Made by a program: the position numbers and the translations under genes
In this document: positions 350-7,388 of the stretch, in pieces
How the letters are laid out: each line of letters starts with the position of its first letter
How positions within the stretch are numbered: the stretch's first letter is position 1
Source of the DNA: Hyphomicrobiales bacterium
Lineage (GTDB): Bacteria > Pseudomonadota > Alphaproteobacteria > Rhizobiales > Xanthobacteraceae
Assembly: GCA_016185205.1 (NCBI GenBank)
Contig: JACPOA010000026.1
Location: 1-64,000 of the forward strand
Direction of reading: 5' to 3'
Length of the DNA: 64,000 nt
The notes under the pieces: generated by a model
Database searches by the model: none
What the model was told of the DNA's origin: nothing
What the model saw: the letters and a program-made list of their open reading frames with translations, nothing else

Positions 350-1414
350 TCACCGCGGCATCAGCACCCAATAATCGAGATCGAGGATCACCGCCGGGTC
401 GTATTCGTCGCCGACTTTGGAAGGGAAATCCGCGCACGGCCGGTCCTTGGTGGCGACGGTGCGCAGGCGGAGCGCTCCGACATCGTGGCGGCCGGGCAGT
501 TCGGCGCGATCAAGCACTTCCGACCAAGCGAACACGGTGAGGCCTGCAAACAGCGGCGCCACGTGGCGTCCGCCATTGATCGCCGCCACGTGGAACGCGT
601 TGCCGAGCCCGTTGAAACTGAGCGCGCGCGCCAGCGAAATGGCGTGGCCGCCATAGATCAGGCGGCGGCCGAAGCGGCCCTTGCCCTCGGCGAACTGGTT
701 GAAATGCACGCGCGCGGTGTTCTGATAAAGCCGCGTCGCGATCTGATGCTCGGCCTCCTCCACCGTGACGCCATCGACATGGTCGATTCTGTCGCCGGTC
801 TTGTAGTCGCCGAAACGGTGCGGGCTGCCGGACAGCACCGTGTCATACGCCGAAGCATCGAGCGGCGGGCAGGCGGTGCCGAGCTTGGCGACATCCACGC
901 TCTTAGGGACCTCCGGTACTTTCTCGGTTGGCGCGGGCGACGTCTCGTCGCGCTTGCGCACCATCACCCAGCGCACATAGTCGAGCACCGCGGCGCCTTC
1001 CTGGTCGAAGCCGCGCGAGCGTACAGTGACGATGCCGGTCTTGCGGTTGGAGTTTTCCTTCAGGCCGATCACTTCCGACGCCGCATGCAGCGTGTCTCCC
1101 GGATAGACCGGCTTCAAGAAACGGCAATCGGCATAGCCGAGATTGGCAACGGCATTGAGCGAGACGTCCGGCACTGTCTTGCCGAACACCGTGTGGAACA
1201 CCAGCAGATCGTCGAGCGGCGAGCGCGGATAGCCGAGCTTGCGCGCGAAAGCATCCGACGACTGCACGGCAAAGCGCGCCCCGAACAGCCCGTTGTAGAG
1301 CGCCACGTCCCCGAGGGTGACGGTGCGCGGCGTGGCGTGGCGGATTTCCTGGCCAAGCCGGAAATCCTCGAAGAAATTTCCCGGGTTGGTTTTGTGCGCG
1401 AACGGCTCGCTCAC
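350..1414 (-). CDS. MaoC-family dehydratase, probable mesaconyl-CoA hydratase
   Basis: A protein of about 354 residues with two hot-dog (MaoC-like) halves. The N-terminal half starts near NFFEDFRLGQEIRHATPRTV and the C-terminal half carries GRFGRRLIYGGHAISLARAL. Length and double-domain layout match mesaconyl-CoA (beta-methylmalyl-CoA) hydratase of the ethylmalonyl-CoA and related pathways. I chose the GTG at 1414 because GGAA stands about 8 bases upstream; GTG at 1459 and ATG at 1453 are in frame but have no ribosome-binding site. A CoA-ester lyase that could share the pathway lies at 12205. The exact substrate is inferred from family resemblance. Confidence 0.75.
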   Translation of the reverse strand: MSEPFAHKTNPGNFFEDFRLGQEIRHATPRTVTLGDVALYNGLFGARFAVQSSDAFARKLGYPRSPLDDLLVFHTVFGKTVPDVSLNAVANLGYADCRFLKPVYPGDTLHAASEVIGLKENSNRKTGIVTVRSRGFDQEGAAVLDYVRWVMVRKRDETSPAPTEKVPEVPKSVDVAKLGTACPPLDASAYDTVLSGSPHRFGDYKTGDRIDHVDGVTVEEAEHQIATRLYQNTARVHFNQFAEGKGRFGRRLIYGGHAISLARALSFNGLGNAFHVAAINGGRHVAPLFAGLTVFAWSEVLDRAELPGRHDVGALRLRTVATKDRPCADFPSKVGDEYDPAVILDLDYWVLMPR

Positions 1415-1568
1415 TGAACTGGTTCCTTCATCCGGTCTTGCCCGGTCCGGCATTCTCACAAAACCGTGAGCCGAACGCTAGGTTCGGGCAACGGGAAACT
1501 GATGAGGACGTGTTTAGCCCTTGTGTTAGCGACTAAAGTGCAAATCCATCCCAGAGGGAGCACACGCG

Positions 1569-1805
1569 ATGAAAAAGGGTCTTTTGTTTTCCGCCATTCT
1601 GTCGACCGCGATCGCAGCCGGCGTGGCCATGGCGCCGGTGGCTTTCGCCGACGACATGAAGAAGGACACCATGTCCAAGGACAGCATGTCGAAGGATTCG
1701 ATGAAGAAGGACACGATGTCGAAAGATACCATGTCCAAGGACTCGATGAAGAAGGACGACGGCATGGCCAAGGACAATATGGCCAAGGACAACATGAAGA
1801 AATAA
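1569..1805 (+). CDS. Exported Met-rich pentapeptide MXKDX repeat protein (MrpX-like)
   Basis: A 78-residue protein. A signal peptide (MKKGLLFSAILSTAIAAG, cleavage probably after VAFA) is followed by about ten tandem five-residue units of the form M-(K/S/A)-K-D-x. The mature part is almost only Met, Lys, Asp, Ser, Thr and Asn, with no Cys or aromatic residues. This matches the pentapeptide MXKDX family and resembles MrpX, a periplasmic Met-rich peptide oxidised by hypochlorite and reduced by a molybdenum Met-sulfoxide reductase. A cytochrome b and a molybdopterin oxidoreductase follow on the same strand, 79 bp downstream, which supports that role. Ribosome-binding site AGAGGGAG. The 15-bp DNA repeat underlies the protein repeat. 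Confidence 0.82.
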   Translation: MKKGLLFSAILSTAIAAGVAMAPVAFADDMKKDTMSKDSMSKDSMKKDTMSKDTMSKDSMKKDDGMAKDNMAKDNMKK

Positions 1806-1884
1806 ATTGCCCGCTGCCGGGTTCTTGCAGCCAGGGGCCCGGCGGCGACGTATATTGGCCAACCGCCAGTATCGGACATGAACC

Positions 1885-2514
1885 ATGAGCGCGGAAACGG
1901 CAGTCGGCGGCAGTCAGATCGCAGCGCGCGAGGCCATTCATCCGGCCTGGGTGCGCGTCACCCATTGGATCAATGCGATCGCGATCCTGGTGATGATCGG
2001 TTCCGGCTGGCAGATCTACGACGCCGCGCCGCTATTCGAGGGGCTGCGCTTCGGCAAGAGTATCTCGCTCGGCAACTGGCTGGCCGGCGCGCTGCTCTGG
2101 CACTTCGCCGCCATGTGGGTGCTGGCGATCAACGGCCTCGTCTATGTGACGCTGGGGATCGTCAGCGGCCGTTTCCGCCGCAAGCTGTTGCCGATCAGCC
2201 CGGCCCAAGTGTTGGCCGATGCCAAGGCGGCGCTCAGCTTCAAGCTCTCGCACGAGGATATTTCGCGCTACAACGCGGTGCAGAAGCTGCTCTATGCCGG
2301 CGTGATCCTCACCGGCATCGTGATCGTGCTGTCGGGTCTGGCGATCTGGAAGCCGGTGCAGTTGCAGGAACTGACCGTGCTGTTCGGCGGTTACGATGTC
2401 GCGCGCTACGTGCATTTCTTCGCCATGGCCGCGATCGTCGGATTTCTGGTCGTGCATGTGGCGCTCGCCTTGTTGGTGCCCAAGAGCCTGCGCGCCATGA
2501 TCACCGGCAGGTAG
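1885..2514 (+). CDS. Cytochrome b/b561-type membrane protein (YedZ1-like)
   Basis: A 209-residue integral membrane protein with four or five hydrophobic segments. His residues are placed as in di-heme cytochrome b: H27 in VRVTHWINA, a His in LLWHFAAMW, and two in the YVHFFAM...VVHVALALL helix. Such proteins pass quinol electrons to a periplasmic partner. The next gene, a Tat-exported molybdopterin oxidoreductase, starts 11 bp downstream, so the two are very likely one electron-transfer unit. It is of the Ni/Fe-hydrogenase cytochrome b/b561 type rather than classical MsrQ. Quinone as electron donor is inferred. Confidence 0.82.
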   Translation: MSAETAVGGSQIAAREAIHPAWVRVTHWINAIAILVMIGSGWQIYDAAPLFEGLRFGKSISLGNWLAGALLWHFAAMWVLAINGLVYVTLGIVSGRFRRKLLPISPAQVLADAKAALSFKLSHEDISRYNAVQKLLYAGVILTGIVIVLSGLAIWKPVQLQELTVLFGGYDVARYVHFFAMAAIVGFLVVHVALALLVPKSLRAMITGR

Positions 2515-2525
2515 GGAGAGACCTC

Positions 2526-3299
2526 ATGCGCCAGCGCAAAATCATTCCCGGCGTCGATCCCAGGCTGCTGATCAAGGATGCAGCCGCGCTGATGCCCGAG
2601 GCCAGCCGGCGCGGCTTCCTGCGCGGCGCCGCCAGCCTGGGCGCGCTCACCTTCCTGACCGGCTGCGACATCATCGACGGCGACACCGCCGAAGGCGTGT
2701 TGCGCAAGATTTCCGCCTTCAACGACGGCGCGCAGGCAGCGCTGTTCAGCCGCAGCAAGCTGGCGCCGACGTATCCGGAAAGCGCCATCACCCGGCCGTT
2801 CCCGTTCAACGCCTATTACGACGAGGACGAGGCGCCGGAGGTGGACGGCGGCACCTACAAACTTGAAGTGGCCGGCTTGGTCGACAACAAGAAACCGTGG
2901 ACGCTTGAGCAGCTGCACGCGCTGCCCGAGGTGTCGCAGATCACCCGCCATGTCTGCGTCGAAGGCTGGAGCGCTATCGGCTCCTGGCAGGGCACGCCGC
3001 TGTCGGAATTCCTCACGCGCATCGGCGCCGACACCCGCGCCAAATACGTCTGGTTCAAATGCGCCGAGGGCTACAGCAACACCATCGACATGCCGACCGC
3101 GCTGCATCCGCAGACGCAGATGACCTTCAAATACGACCACAAGATCCTGCCGCGCGCCTATGGCTTCCCGATGAAGATCCGCATGCCCACCAAGCTCGGC
3201 TTCAAGAACCCGAAATACGTGGTGGCGATGGAAGTCACCAACACCGACAGAGGCGGCTATTGGGAGGACCAGGGCTACAACTGGTTCAGCGGGTTGTAG
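2526..3299 (+). CDS. Tat-exported molybdopterin-dependent oxidoreductase (YedY1-like)
   Basis: A protein of 257 residues. The N-terminus has a twin-arginine motif (SRRGFLRG, R28-R29) followed by a lipobox-like LTGC (Cys47), suggesting a Tat-exported lipoprotein. The sulfite-oxidase-fold Moco domain follows, with the molybdenum-ligating Cys144 in RHVCVEGWSAIGSW. It lacks the C-terminal dimerisation domain of sulfite oxidases, and its length fits the MsrP/YedY group. I took the ATG at 2526; the longer frame upstream belongs to the cytochrome b gene in another phase. With the cytochrome b and the Met-rich peptide it plausibly reduces periplasmic Met sulfoxide. Substrate not proven. Confidence 0.82.
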   Translation: MRQRKIIPGVDPRLLIKDAAALMPEASRRGFLRGAASLGALTFLTGCDIIDGDTAEGVLRKISAFNDGAQAALFSRSKLAPTYPESAITRPFPFNAYYDEDEAPEVDGGTYKLEVAGLVDNKKPWTLEQLHALPEVSQITRHVCVEGWSAIGSWQGTPLSEFLTRIGADTRAKYVWFKCAEGYSNTIDMPTALHPQTQMTFKYDHKILPRAYGFPMKIRMPTKLGFKNPKYVVAMEVTNTDRGGYWEDQGYNWFSGL

Positions 3300-3302
3300 C
3301 GG

Positions 3303-3710
3303 TCACCGCGCCATAAATGGGTTTATTAGCTCCACCCCGAATTCCTTGAAGTCCTTCACGTTCCTGGTCACGACGGAGAGCCCGTGCAGCTTCGCTGTTG
3401 CCGCGATCATCGCGTCCGCGATCAGTTCATCTGACTTTCCATGCATGAGCCTGCCCCACAGGCGAAATGCGGCGCCGTCCAACGGCAATACACTCCATGT
3501 ATCGGCGATGTGATCGGCCCAGGCTTCGATCTCGGCCGCCCTTTCCGCATCTTGCCCGCGCGTGATTTCAATCCCGACTTGAATTTCGCCAAGTGAGACG
3601 GCCGAAATGTGGAGATGCCGGTCGTCCACGCCACGTATCCAGGCGATAACGGCGCCATGCGGCTTCGACTTGCGCAGTTCGGAAAGTACATTCGTATCGA
3701 GCAGATACAT
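3303..3710 (-). CDS. vapC: VapC-type PIN-domain toxin (FitB-like)
   Basis: A 135-residue PIN-domain protein. The acidic metal site is complete: D5 in LLDTNVLSELR, E42 in SLGEIQVG, D99 in IADAMIAATA and D120 in VTRNVKDF. PIN toxins are Mg-dependent RNases, often cutting tRNA or rRNA. It follows the antitoxin gene by 6 bp on the same strand, the usual antitoxin-first order. The opening of LLDTNVLSELRK is characteristic of the FitB/VapC subgroup. Its RNA target cannot be read from sequence. Confidence 0.9.
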   Translation of the reverse strand: MYLLDTNVLSELRKSKPHGAVIAWIRGVDDRHLHISAVSLGEIQVGIEITRGQDAERAAEIEAWADHIADTWSVLPLDGAAFRLWGRLMHGKSDELIADAMIAATAKLHGLSVVTRNVKDFKEFGVELINPFMAR

Positions 3711-3716
3711 CCGCGC

Positions 3717-3974
3717 TTACTCGAAGCGCTCAGGCCGACGCCATTTCCATCGCCGGCGCGGCGGGATATTTAGTTCGCCGCGGCCTTCGTCGCTCAACAG
3801 CAATTCCTTGAGCGTCGGCTTGCTGCCCTTTGCCAGCCGTTTCCATTGCTCGGCCGGCACCAGAACCGCAGCGTCCACGCCTCGCCGGGTGACGAGCTGC
3901 GGGCCTTTCTTCAAGCAGGCGTCGAGCATCTCGCTGAACCGCGCTTTGGCATCCTGCACCGGCCAGGTTTTCAT
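3717..3974 (-). CDS. Phd/YefM-family antitoxin
   Basis: An 85-residue protein whose N-terminus (TWPVQDAKARFSEMLDACLK) is the DNA-binding Phd/YefM fold. It continues with QLVTRRGVDAAVLVPAEQW, the standard family core. The C-terminal part (about residues 50-85) is basic and would wrap the toxin. It is the first gene of the pair with the PIN toxin. Two 12-bp direct repeats with an ACTAGT core lie 10-33 bp before its start and are the likely autoregulatory operator. Confidence 0.9.
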   Translation of the reverse strand: MKTWPVQDAKARFSEMLDACLKKGPQLVTRRGVDAAVLVPAEQWKRLAKGSKPTLKELLLSDEGRGELNIPPRRRWKWRRPERFE

Positions 3975-5969: not shown

Positions 5970-6035
5970 ATTCCATGCGTTACGCTTTGAGAGAAAAAGC
6001 GCCCTGCAATGGGGGCCGATCAGGGAGAAAACATC

Positions 6036-7388
6036 ATGTCTGGGCGCACAGAACGTTCTATCGAGGAACTCTATCGCGACGATCCTGAGCGGGCCGATGC
6101 CTTGGCCTTCGGACGCGAGAGCGGCCCGAACCGCCGCGGCTTCTTGGGCGGCGCCGGCCTTGCCGCCATGAGCGCGGCCGTCGGCGGCGCGATTCCCTTC
6201 GCAGCGACTATGCCGGGCGGGCTGGTTCCGTCCGCCTTTGCGCAAAGCACCCCTCCGGCTGCGGCGCCCGCTGCGCCAAAGGGCCCGCAATACCTGAAAT
6301 TCCCCGGCAAGAGCGACAAGCTCGTGGTGCTCGGCGAAAAGCCGCTGGTTGCGGAAACACCAGAGCATCTGCTCGACGATGCGACCACGCCGACCGACAA
6401 GCTGTTCGTGCGCAATAACGGCCAAATTCCGGACGAGGCTAAAGAGCCGGACAAGTGGAAGATCACCATCGACGGCGAGGTGAACAAGAAGCTCGAACTC
6501 ACGCTCGGGGAGCTGAAATCCAAATATAAGCCGGTGACCCGCCGCTTGGTGCTCGAATGCGGCGGCAACGGCCGCTCGTTCTTCACGCCGCAGGCGCGTG
6601 GTAACCAATGGACCAATGGTGGTGCCGGCAGTTCCGAATGGACCGGCGTGCGGCTCGCCGATCTGCTTAAGGCGGCGGGCGTGAAGCCCTCCGCTGTTTT
6701 CAGCGGTCACTACGGCACTGACCCGCACCTCTCCGGCGACGCCAGCAAGCCGTCGCTGTCGCGCGGCGTGCCGATCAAGAAGCTGATGGACGAGAACAAT
6801 CTCGTAGTCTGGGCACTCAACGGCCAGCCGTTGCCGAACATCCATGGCGGACCGGTTCGTCTGTTGATCCCCGGCTGGCCCGGTTCGGTGTCGGCCAAGT
6901 GGCTGTCCCGCATTTGGCTCCGCGACAAGGTGCATGATGGCCCCGGCATGGGGCAGTTCTCGTACCGCGTCGCCATCAAGCCAATGGTGCCGGGCGGCAA
7001 GCCGGATGAGAAGAATTTCAAGGATATGGAATCGATGCCGGTGCGTTCGATTATTACCAGTCCGGCCAACGGCACTAAGCTTCCCGCCGGCACCAAGGAA
7101 GTAAAGCTTCGTGGCGCGGCGTGGGCCGGTGACTACACCGTCAAGCAGGTCGATGTGTCGACCGACTTCGGCGCGACCTGGACGCGCGCCACGGTCGAGA
7201 GCCCGAAGAACAAGTACGATTGGCAGCGCTGGACCGCGTCAGTGAAGCTGCCGTCGGACGGCTATTTCGAAATCTGGACACGCGGCACCGATTCCAAAGG
7301 GACAATGCAACCGCACCTCGCTGGGTTCTGGAATCCCCAGGGTTACGGCGGCAACCCGATGCACCGGGTGGCAGTGCTGGTCGGCTGA
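6036..7388 (+). CDS. Sulfite oxidase-family molybdenum enzyme (SorA/SoxC-like), Tat-exported
   Basis: A 450-residue protein. A twin-arginine signal (NRRGFLGGAGLAAM, residues 32-45) is followed by an Ala/Pro-rich linker. The Moco domain carries Cys175 in RRLVLECGGNGRSFF, and the C-terminal Mo-co dimerisation domain (about 330-450) includes AAWAGDYTVKQVDVSTDFG. This two-domain layout is that of periplasmic sulfite:cytochrome c oxidoreductases, oxidising sulfite to sulfate. The ATG at 6036 has AGGGAG eight bases before it; a start at 6009 has none. The next frame overlaps its stop by one base and looks like a truncated cytochrome c subunit, so the natural electron acceptor may be missing. Confidence 0.85.
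   Translation: MSGRTERSIEELYRDDPERADALAFGRESGPNRRGFLGGAGLAAMSAAVGGAIPFAATMPGGLVPSAFAQSTPPAAAPAAPKGPQYLKFPGKSDKLVVLGEKPLVAETPEHLLDDATTPTDKLFVRNNGQIPDEAKEPDKWKITIDGEVNKKLELTLGELKSKYKPVTRRLVLECGGNGRSFFTPQARGNQWTNGGAGSSEWTGVRLADLLKAAGVKPSAVFSGHYGTDPHLSGDASKPSLSRGVPIKKLMDENNLVVWALNGQPLPNIHGGPVRLLIPGWPGSVSAKWLSRIWLRDKVHDGPGMGQFSYRVAIKPMVPGGKPDEKNFKDMESMPVRSIITSPANGTKLPAGTKEVKLRGAAWAGDYTVKQVDVSTDFGATWTRATVESPKNKYDWQRWTASVKLPSDGYFEIWTRGTDSKGTMQPHLAGFWNPQGYGGNPMHRVAVLVG

Follow-up and report, generated by a model that had tools for sequence, protein, structure and literature searches.

A Putative Periplasmic Methionine Redox Operon in a Hyphomicrobiales Bacterium: Patchy Linkage of an MXKDX Peptide to a Constant Cytochrome b and Molybdopterin Protein Pair

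The first 64,000 nucleotides of contig JACPOA010000026.1 (assembly GCA_016185205.1, Hyphomicrobiales bacterium), hereafter the window, carry near their start a gene for a methionine-rich peptide followed by two genes for redox proteins. An initial annotation had read these as a hypochlorite-scavenging locus of the MrpX-YedYZ kind known from Azospira and had suggested the same role for MXKDX peptides at large, and the question is how far the locus and its relatives bear this out. The coordinates and the common strand of the trio were confirmed and all family matches were above their cut-offs, with gaps of 79 bases between peptide and cytochrome and 11 bases between cytochrome and molybdopterin (Moco) protein. 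The features are as follows.

350..1459, minus strand: divergent MaoC-like gene, mesaconyl-CoA hydratase family (PF19315, PF01575)
1489..1513, plus strand: candidate promoter (block CAAC-N16-CGTGT) lying 80 bases upstream of the peptide gene
1569..1805, plus strand: MXKDX peptide, predicted exported, 78 aa (TIGR02953, 79.8 bits; composition)
1885..2514, plus strand: membrane cytochrome b, 209 aa (PF01292, 92.3 bits)
2526..3299, plus strand: Tat-exported YedY-like Moco protein, 257 aa (PF00174, 95.6 bits; fold match)

The start of the MaoC-like reading frame at 1459 is the longest possible one. A homologue of this gene also lies near the cytochrome-Moco pair in relatives, and it is probably a synteny anchor outside the system. 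Directly past the Moco gene, at 3303-3974, the minus strand carries a PIN-domain toxin and Phd/YefM antitoxin pair.

The peptide scored 79.8 bits on TIGR02953 (penta_MxKDx) against a cut-off of 41, which places it in the MXKDX family, and the roughly ten M-x-K-D-x units first reported were found to be nine units and a final MKK. Residues 1-27 form the predicted signal peptide, as judged by eye. The 50 residues from 29 to 78 contain 10 Met (20%), 14 Lys and 11 Asp together with small polar residues, and by composition count this part has no Cys and no aromatic residue, while the whole peptide has no Cys or His. The repeat units vary in their synonymous codons, so that the protein pattern rather than a DNA repeat seems to be what is kept, and the linked peptides of relatives diverge in sequence and retain their Met-richness.

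The cytochrome b matched PF01292 (92.3 bits, cut-off 30.1) and was listed with no match to PF01794, the ferric-reductase-type domain of the MsrQ partner. Its five histidines (27, 73, 123, 177 and 191) were invariant across 13 aligned sequences. The Moco protein matched PF00174 (95.6 bits, cut-off 24), and the reading of it as Tat-exported with a lipobox was upheld by an alignment of 22 sequences, the window included, in which R28-R29, the lipobox Cys47 and Cys144 were invariant. Cys144 presumably occupies the position of the molybdenum-binding cysteine of YedY, which fits the alignment of the active-site stretch (CVE-WS) with YedY, and the Asp after the lipobox cysteine presumably marks retention at the inner membrane. 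A fold search with the AlphaFold model, which is of moderate quality (mean pLDDT 64.5), was led by the YedY chains 1xdy and 1xdq, with sulfite dehydrogenases next. The protein belongs to the sulfite-oxidase superfamily and, by sequence and predicted fold, lies nearest to YedY/MsrP. A canonical MsrPQ system was rejected, as the protein reached 70.9 bits on the MsrP model (cut-off 207), outside that family, and its cytochrome partner matched PF01292 only. Elsewhere in the window (6009-7388), and unrelated to the trio, lies a gene for a Tat-type sulfite dehydrogenase that is SorA-like and has a dimerisation domain.

Systems of this kind are already published, namely yedYZ-mrpX of Azospira, bcrXQP of Brucella and c3566-c3568 of uropathogenic Escherichia coli. 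If the MrpX-YedYZ kind is taken as an exported Met-rich peptide gene adjoining genes for a YedY-like Moco enzyme and a membrane cytochrome b, the window belongs to it. In Azospira, yedYZ-mrpX sits beside SigF/NrsF in the perchlorate reduction island and is described as a periplasmic methionine cycle (PMC4623255). By that description it has in common with the window a Met-rich peptide, an enzyme of the YedY type and a partner in the membrane; the 80 named loci include no Azospira record. The window copy has no adjoining sigma pair. In Brucella melitensis, bcrXQP with BcrS/AbcS is described as an MXKDX peptide gene followed by the Q and P genes under ECF16 control, the same peptide-then-enzyme order as in the window; HOCl induces the operon, HOCl survival of the triple deletion is reduced at 1.5 h, and a shared role of MXKDX proteins is already proposed (PMC8315932). 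The E. coli genes, of the OrhK/OrhR regulon, form a single operon for a cytochrome b, a Moco protein and a Met-rich peptide; mutants in c3566 and c3567 show sensitivity to tert-butyl hydroperoxide, and the growth tests in the available passages named c3564-c3567 and not c3568 (PMC8550376). That form is likened to the window by description, the sequence figures coming from a plasmid copy (L249) whose Moco protein is 52% identical to that of the window and whose trio falls in the same Pfam families. It differs from the window, where the peptide comes first, in its last-placed peptide, its adjoining two-component system and its link to peroxide. With E. coli MsrPQ (YedYZ) the window shares a Tat-exported YedY-type enzyme, a membrane heme partner, the fold and the CVE-WS stretch, but it departs in its PF01292 cytochrome, an MsrP score far under the cut-off, the lipobox and a peptide of its own.

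Because sigF/nrsF adjoins the Azospira trio but is absent from the E. coli form, it was treated as a variable trait. No such pair was seen beside the window trio, as the initial annotation had stated, although the contig begins at window base 1, and two NrsF genes lie elsewhere in the window genome. The comparison with MrpX-YedYZ is reasonable: gene content, constant enzyme pairing and relatives with adjoining SigF/NrsF bear it out, but the pair is not canonical MsrPQ, and the earlier interpretation as a whole is partly supported.

On present sequence evidence, the operon is probably a periplasmic methionine redox cycle, in which a sacrificial peptide is combined with enzymes that recharge it. 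Hypochlorite or another strong oxidant would convert the Met residues of the peptide to Met sulfoxide, sparing envelope proteins. Quinol electrons would pass through the cytochrome b to the Moco enzyme, which, tethered to the inner membrane, would reduce the Met sulfoxides of the peptide. The window copy would be read from its own upstream block, with no adjoining sigma/anti-sigma pair.

The association of peptide and enzymes was surveyed using the window Moco protein as query (P0003), with a family threshold of E 1e-30 or better. Among 249 genomes of the order, an MXKDX match was present in 35 (20 over the cut-off) and a P0003 relative in 87. The Moco proteins fell into two classes: class A, which includes the window (48% identity or more), and class B (about 30-44%), which carries a longer cytochrome b. 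In seven class-B genomes (G220, G023, G187, G225, G099, G130 and G179), no more than about 2 kb separated the Moco gene from an MXKDX match. Divergent SigF-NrsF genes were found at class-B loci L090 and L093, and a divergent SigF gene at L095. The divergent sigma arrangement of Brucella, as described, resembles that of L090 and L093, whose Moco proteins are 35-37% identical to that of the window. A different Met-rich, Cys-containing peptide lies directly downstream of the class-A Moco gene at two order-level loci (L073, 5824-6186; L077, 3942-4310); that of L073, the one scanned, matched no Pfam family.

The family survey of 218 genomes gave an MXKDX match in 79 (65 over the cut-off) and a P0003 relative in 147. 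The two lay together in at least 13 of the 79 (at least 10 of the 65), the peptide being just upstream on the same strand in 12 of the 13 and downstream on the other strand in one (G364). Besides the window, a TIGR02953 match and a P0003 relative lay no more than about 1 kb apart in at least 12 family genomes. The linkage is not a chance result, because only about 0.06 such cases would be expected among 79 genomes (our own estimate, for 2 kb either side in a 5-Mb genome) against the 12 observed. Two further linked Met-rich peptides (L188, L207) were found in genomes with no TIGR02953 match. The 60 family loci fetched were chosen nearest-first from the 147 positive genomes, which gives an undercount of peptides that have diverged beyond the reach of TIGR02953, and because some contigs are short the linkage counts are lower bounds. 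Within the genus, the peptide was present in 5 of 14 genomes and was linked in all five among the matches listed; six of the other nine had only a 53-56% identical Moco protein, and three had no relative at the threshold. Linkage is thus real but patchy, and the objection that it is not conserved in relatives applies in part, as the peptide was not beside the listed Moco relative in 66 of the 79 genomes. The enzyme pair itself is constant: the gene immediately preceding the Moco gene encodes a cytochrome b relative in all 79 class-A genome loci fetched and in 79 of 80 named loci, the odd one lying at a contig edge. These results argue against a simple conserved trio.

The closest named full-length match was a Pseudolabrys MAG (Moco protein 88% identical) with the peptide in place, while no peptide was found at the locus of a truncated Hyphomicrobiales match (91% identical). 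Among plasmids, 10 of the 246 records with a P0003 relative were examined. The trio was accompanied by SigF and DUF1109/NrsF in Caballeronia zhejiangensis and C. grimmiae, and by two-component systems in Rahnella and E. coli (L249). The trio was also present on a 6.4-kb plasmid of Klebsiella variicola, with the annotated MXKDX gene about 1.1 kb away on the other strand. Burkholderia contaminans had a Met-rich peptide not annotated as MXKDX, and in Microvirga a FAS1 gene occupied the slot before the cytochrome. Two Rhizobium plasmid loci and an Agrobacterium class-B record yielded no Met-rich peptide. Of 5426 E. coli genomes, 348 contained 80% or more of the trio, with 288 places chromosomal; among the matches listed, the chromosomal copies were about 73-74% identical to the plasmid copy, and they may include c3566-c3568. 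A Cu/Zn superoxide dismutase gene was seen near the MaoC-like or Moco gene in 18 relatives' loci (e.g. L219 1502-2017, L211, L202) and on another contig of the window genome.

The slot before the cytochrome was more often held by a FAS1 gene, which encodes a fasciclin-domain protein (PF02469). The gene was FAS1 in 65 of the 80 named loci, the peptide in 4 and another gene in 9, with one locus at a contig edge and one without the cytochrome, and seven same-family genomes of the order survey had FAS1 before the cytochrome and the peptide elsewhere. Both peptide and FAS1 were present at L192 and L257. On a tree of 92 Moco proteins, 26 were labelled FAS1, 16 peptide upstream, 9 peptide downstream and 41 none, the last including loci cut by contig ends. 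For the upstream peptide the minimum was 12 changes, of which well-supported branches force 7, and its label showed only weak clustering (6 of 500 shuffles as low). The tree shows an alternation of peptide and FAS1, which amounts to repeated exchange. FAS1 genes had an ECF-like promoter motif of their own, GAAAC-N-CGTA with a spacer of almost always 16 or 17, upstream in 86 of 90 cases (controls 9 and 0), and this motif preceded cytochrome genes in 3 of 159 stretches; many of the loci behind such promoter counts are closely related to one another and so not independent. RskA-like anti-sigma genes were near FAS1 at three loci only (L071, L072 and L243) and within 4 kb in none of the 80 named loci; in the window genome, a different contig holds FAS1 together with adjoining genes for an ECF sigma factor and an RskA-type protein. 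Mycobacterial SigK-RskA controls fasciclin proteins. In the titles, abstract openings and passages searched, no pairing of fasciclin with sulfite oxidase, molybdopterin or Met-sulfoxide reductase was found.

The same counts bear on an alternative that we judge unlikely, in which the cytochrome b-Moco pair is a general reductase of Met sulfoxide (or small S-oxides) in the envelope, the peptide is merely co-regulated, and the true clients are folded proteins such as FAS1. Most relatives have the pair with no nearby peptide, often with FAS1 in the slot, and canonical MsrPQ repairs the folded proteins SurA and Pal (quoted in passages of PMC8315932 and PMC8550376). Against such a reductase, part of the family has the peptide gene at the head of the operon, and in different lineages it has become attached to the pair on different sides, upstream or downstream.

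The candidate promoter block CAAC-N16-CGTGT was exact before 5 of 13 located linked peptides, the window included, with near variants before 4 more. It is conserved in the upstream sequences of relatives and is shared by the window and its nearest syntenic relatives, which have no sigF-nrsF pair. The published EcfF consensus, of group ECF16 (SigF/EcfF), is GTAAC(g,a)-N14-15-(c,t)CG(t,a) (PMC3420878); the window peptide is preceded instead by its CAAC-N16-CGTGT block, which has a SigF-like position and N16 spacing without SigF boxes. Pfam-confirmed sigF and nrsF genes lay directly upstream of the peptide on the same strand at L181, L184 and L218, and a SigF match directly upstream at L257; GTAAC-N-CGAA preceded the peptide in all four. 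The expectation that regulation would differ from the sigma/anti-sigma form was right locally, but genus mate L181 (Moco protein 86% identical) retains sigF-nrsF in the operon, where the two genes separate the peptide from the same MaoC-like gene. A SigF-NrsF pair preceded by SigF-type motifs is also present in the window genome, on a different contig. A small protein with several Met follows that nrsF (L247, 872-1210), with a SigF-type motif about 28 bases upstream; a Pfam scan of part of it gave no match.

For MXKDX genes of the family not linked to the pair, GTAAC-N15-17-CG(A/T) was present within 250 bases upstream in all 31 located (reverse-complemented controls on the same stretches 0, reversed 3), many of these loci being close relatives and not independent, and lay 69-87 bases before the start in 29. 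The strict EcfF consensus was found in 23 of the 31 (controls 0 and 0), and outside the family the loose motif preceded only 4 of 18 MXKDX genes. These counts left out L148 (no peptide found) and L125, L143 and L147 (near SigF or the pair). The proposed MXKDX-wide buffer role gains from these EcfF-type promoters, but in print it is not new, having been put forward for Brucella (PMC8315932).

A palindrome, TCACAAAACCGTGA, at window 1456-1469 beside the MaoC-like gene is conserved in relatives, and a similar one precedes FAS1 at L334. As a response-regulator box of the peptide operon it was dropped: the pattern occurs once in the window genome, about chance level by our own estimate, and relatives retain a similar palindrome next to the MaoC-like gene even where the following gene is FAS1 (L204, L210) or where no peptide was found (L196, L189).

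An improbable reading makes the peptide a buffer that binds a metal (e.g. Cu or Cd) under metal stress, with the reductase repairing metal-driven oxidation damage. The Met/Asp-rich sequence would suit it, in Caulobacter a YedY-like gene is under the control of SigF, which responds to chromium and cadmium (PMC3511200), and heavy-metal type two-component genes adjoin the pair in two Rhizobium plasmids; yet those two loci yielded no Met-rich peptide, the window peptide lacks Cys and His, and bcrXQP is induced by HOCl (PMC8315932). A reading of the Moco protein as a sulfite dehydrogenase, with the peptide incidental, is highly improbable and was rejected, for although PF00174 is a shared domain family and sulfite dehydrogenases rank after YedY in the fold search, the SorA and SoxC-type models gave 35 and 33.5 bits (cut-offs 600 and 420), the Mo-co dimerisation domain (PF03404) was unmatched in the Pfam search, unlike the case of the SorA-like gene at 6009-7388, and the active-site stretch aligns with YedY.

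The methionine cycle is favoured because of the family and motif matches, the YedY-led fold search, the constant enzyme pair and the linked peptides in relatives; because sigF-nrsF stands in the operons of three relatives and EcfF-type promoters precede unlinked peptides; and because of the Brucella HOCl and E. coli peroxide phenotypes reported in the available passages (PMC8315932, PMC8550376). It is weakened because those phenotypes, as given there, do not single out the peptide (a triple deletion in Brucella, tests without c3568 in E. coli), because in most of the family the peptide is absent or encoded elsewhere while the pair mostly adjoins FAS1 or neither, and because the window promoter is off the EcfF consensus, the E. 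coli form is tied to peroxide and not chlorine, and the structural model is moderate.

As far as our searches reach, the patchy linkage, the EcfF-type promoters on unlinked MXKDX genes and the repeated peptide-FAS1 exchange are new. A possible, tentative extension is that MXKDX peptides across the family, linked or not, form the dispersed sacrificial arm of the ECF16 (SigF/EcfF) oxidant response, and that the class-A reductase has two interchangeable co-encoded partners, one a disordered Met sink controlled by SigF/NrsF or by two-component systems, the other folded periplasmic FAS1 with the GAAAC-N16/17-CGTA promoter and, in some, an adjoining RskA-type ECF system. If so, a molybdenum Met-sulfoxide reductase would have FAS1 as its client or its redox partner. 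The exchange with FAS1 predicts that bacterial fasciclin proteins have a role here and points to a substrate of the Moco reductase. A test bed would be offered by Bradyrhizobium-type genomes, which combine FAS1-cytochrome-Moco operons with an MXKDX gene outside them and, in B. japonicum, a mapped EcfF regulon. The locus would extend the sacrificial-methionine mechanism to free-living Pseudolabrys relatives and give the MXKDX family a testable regulon.
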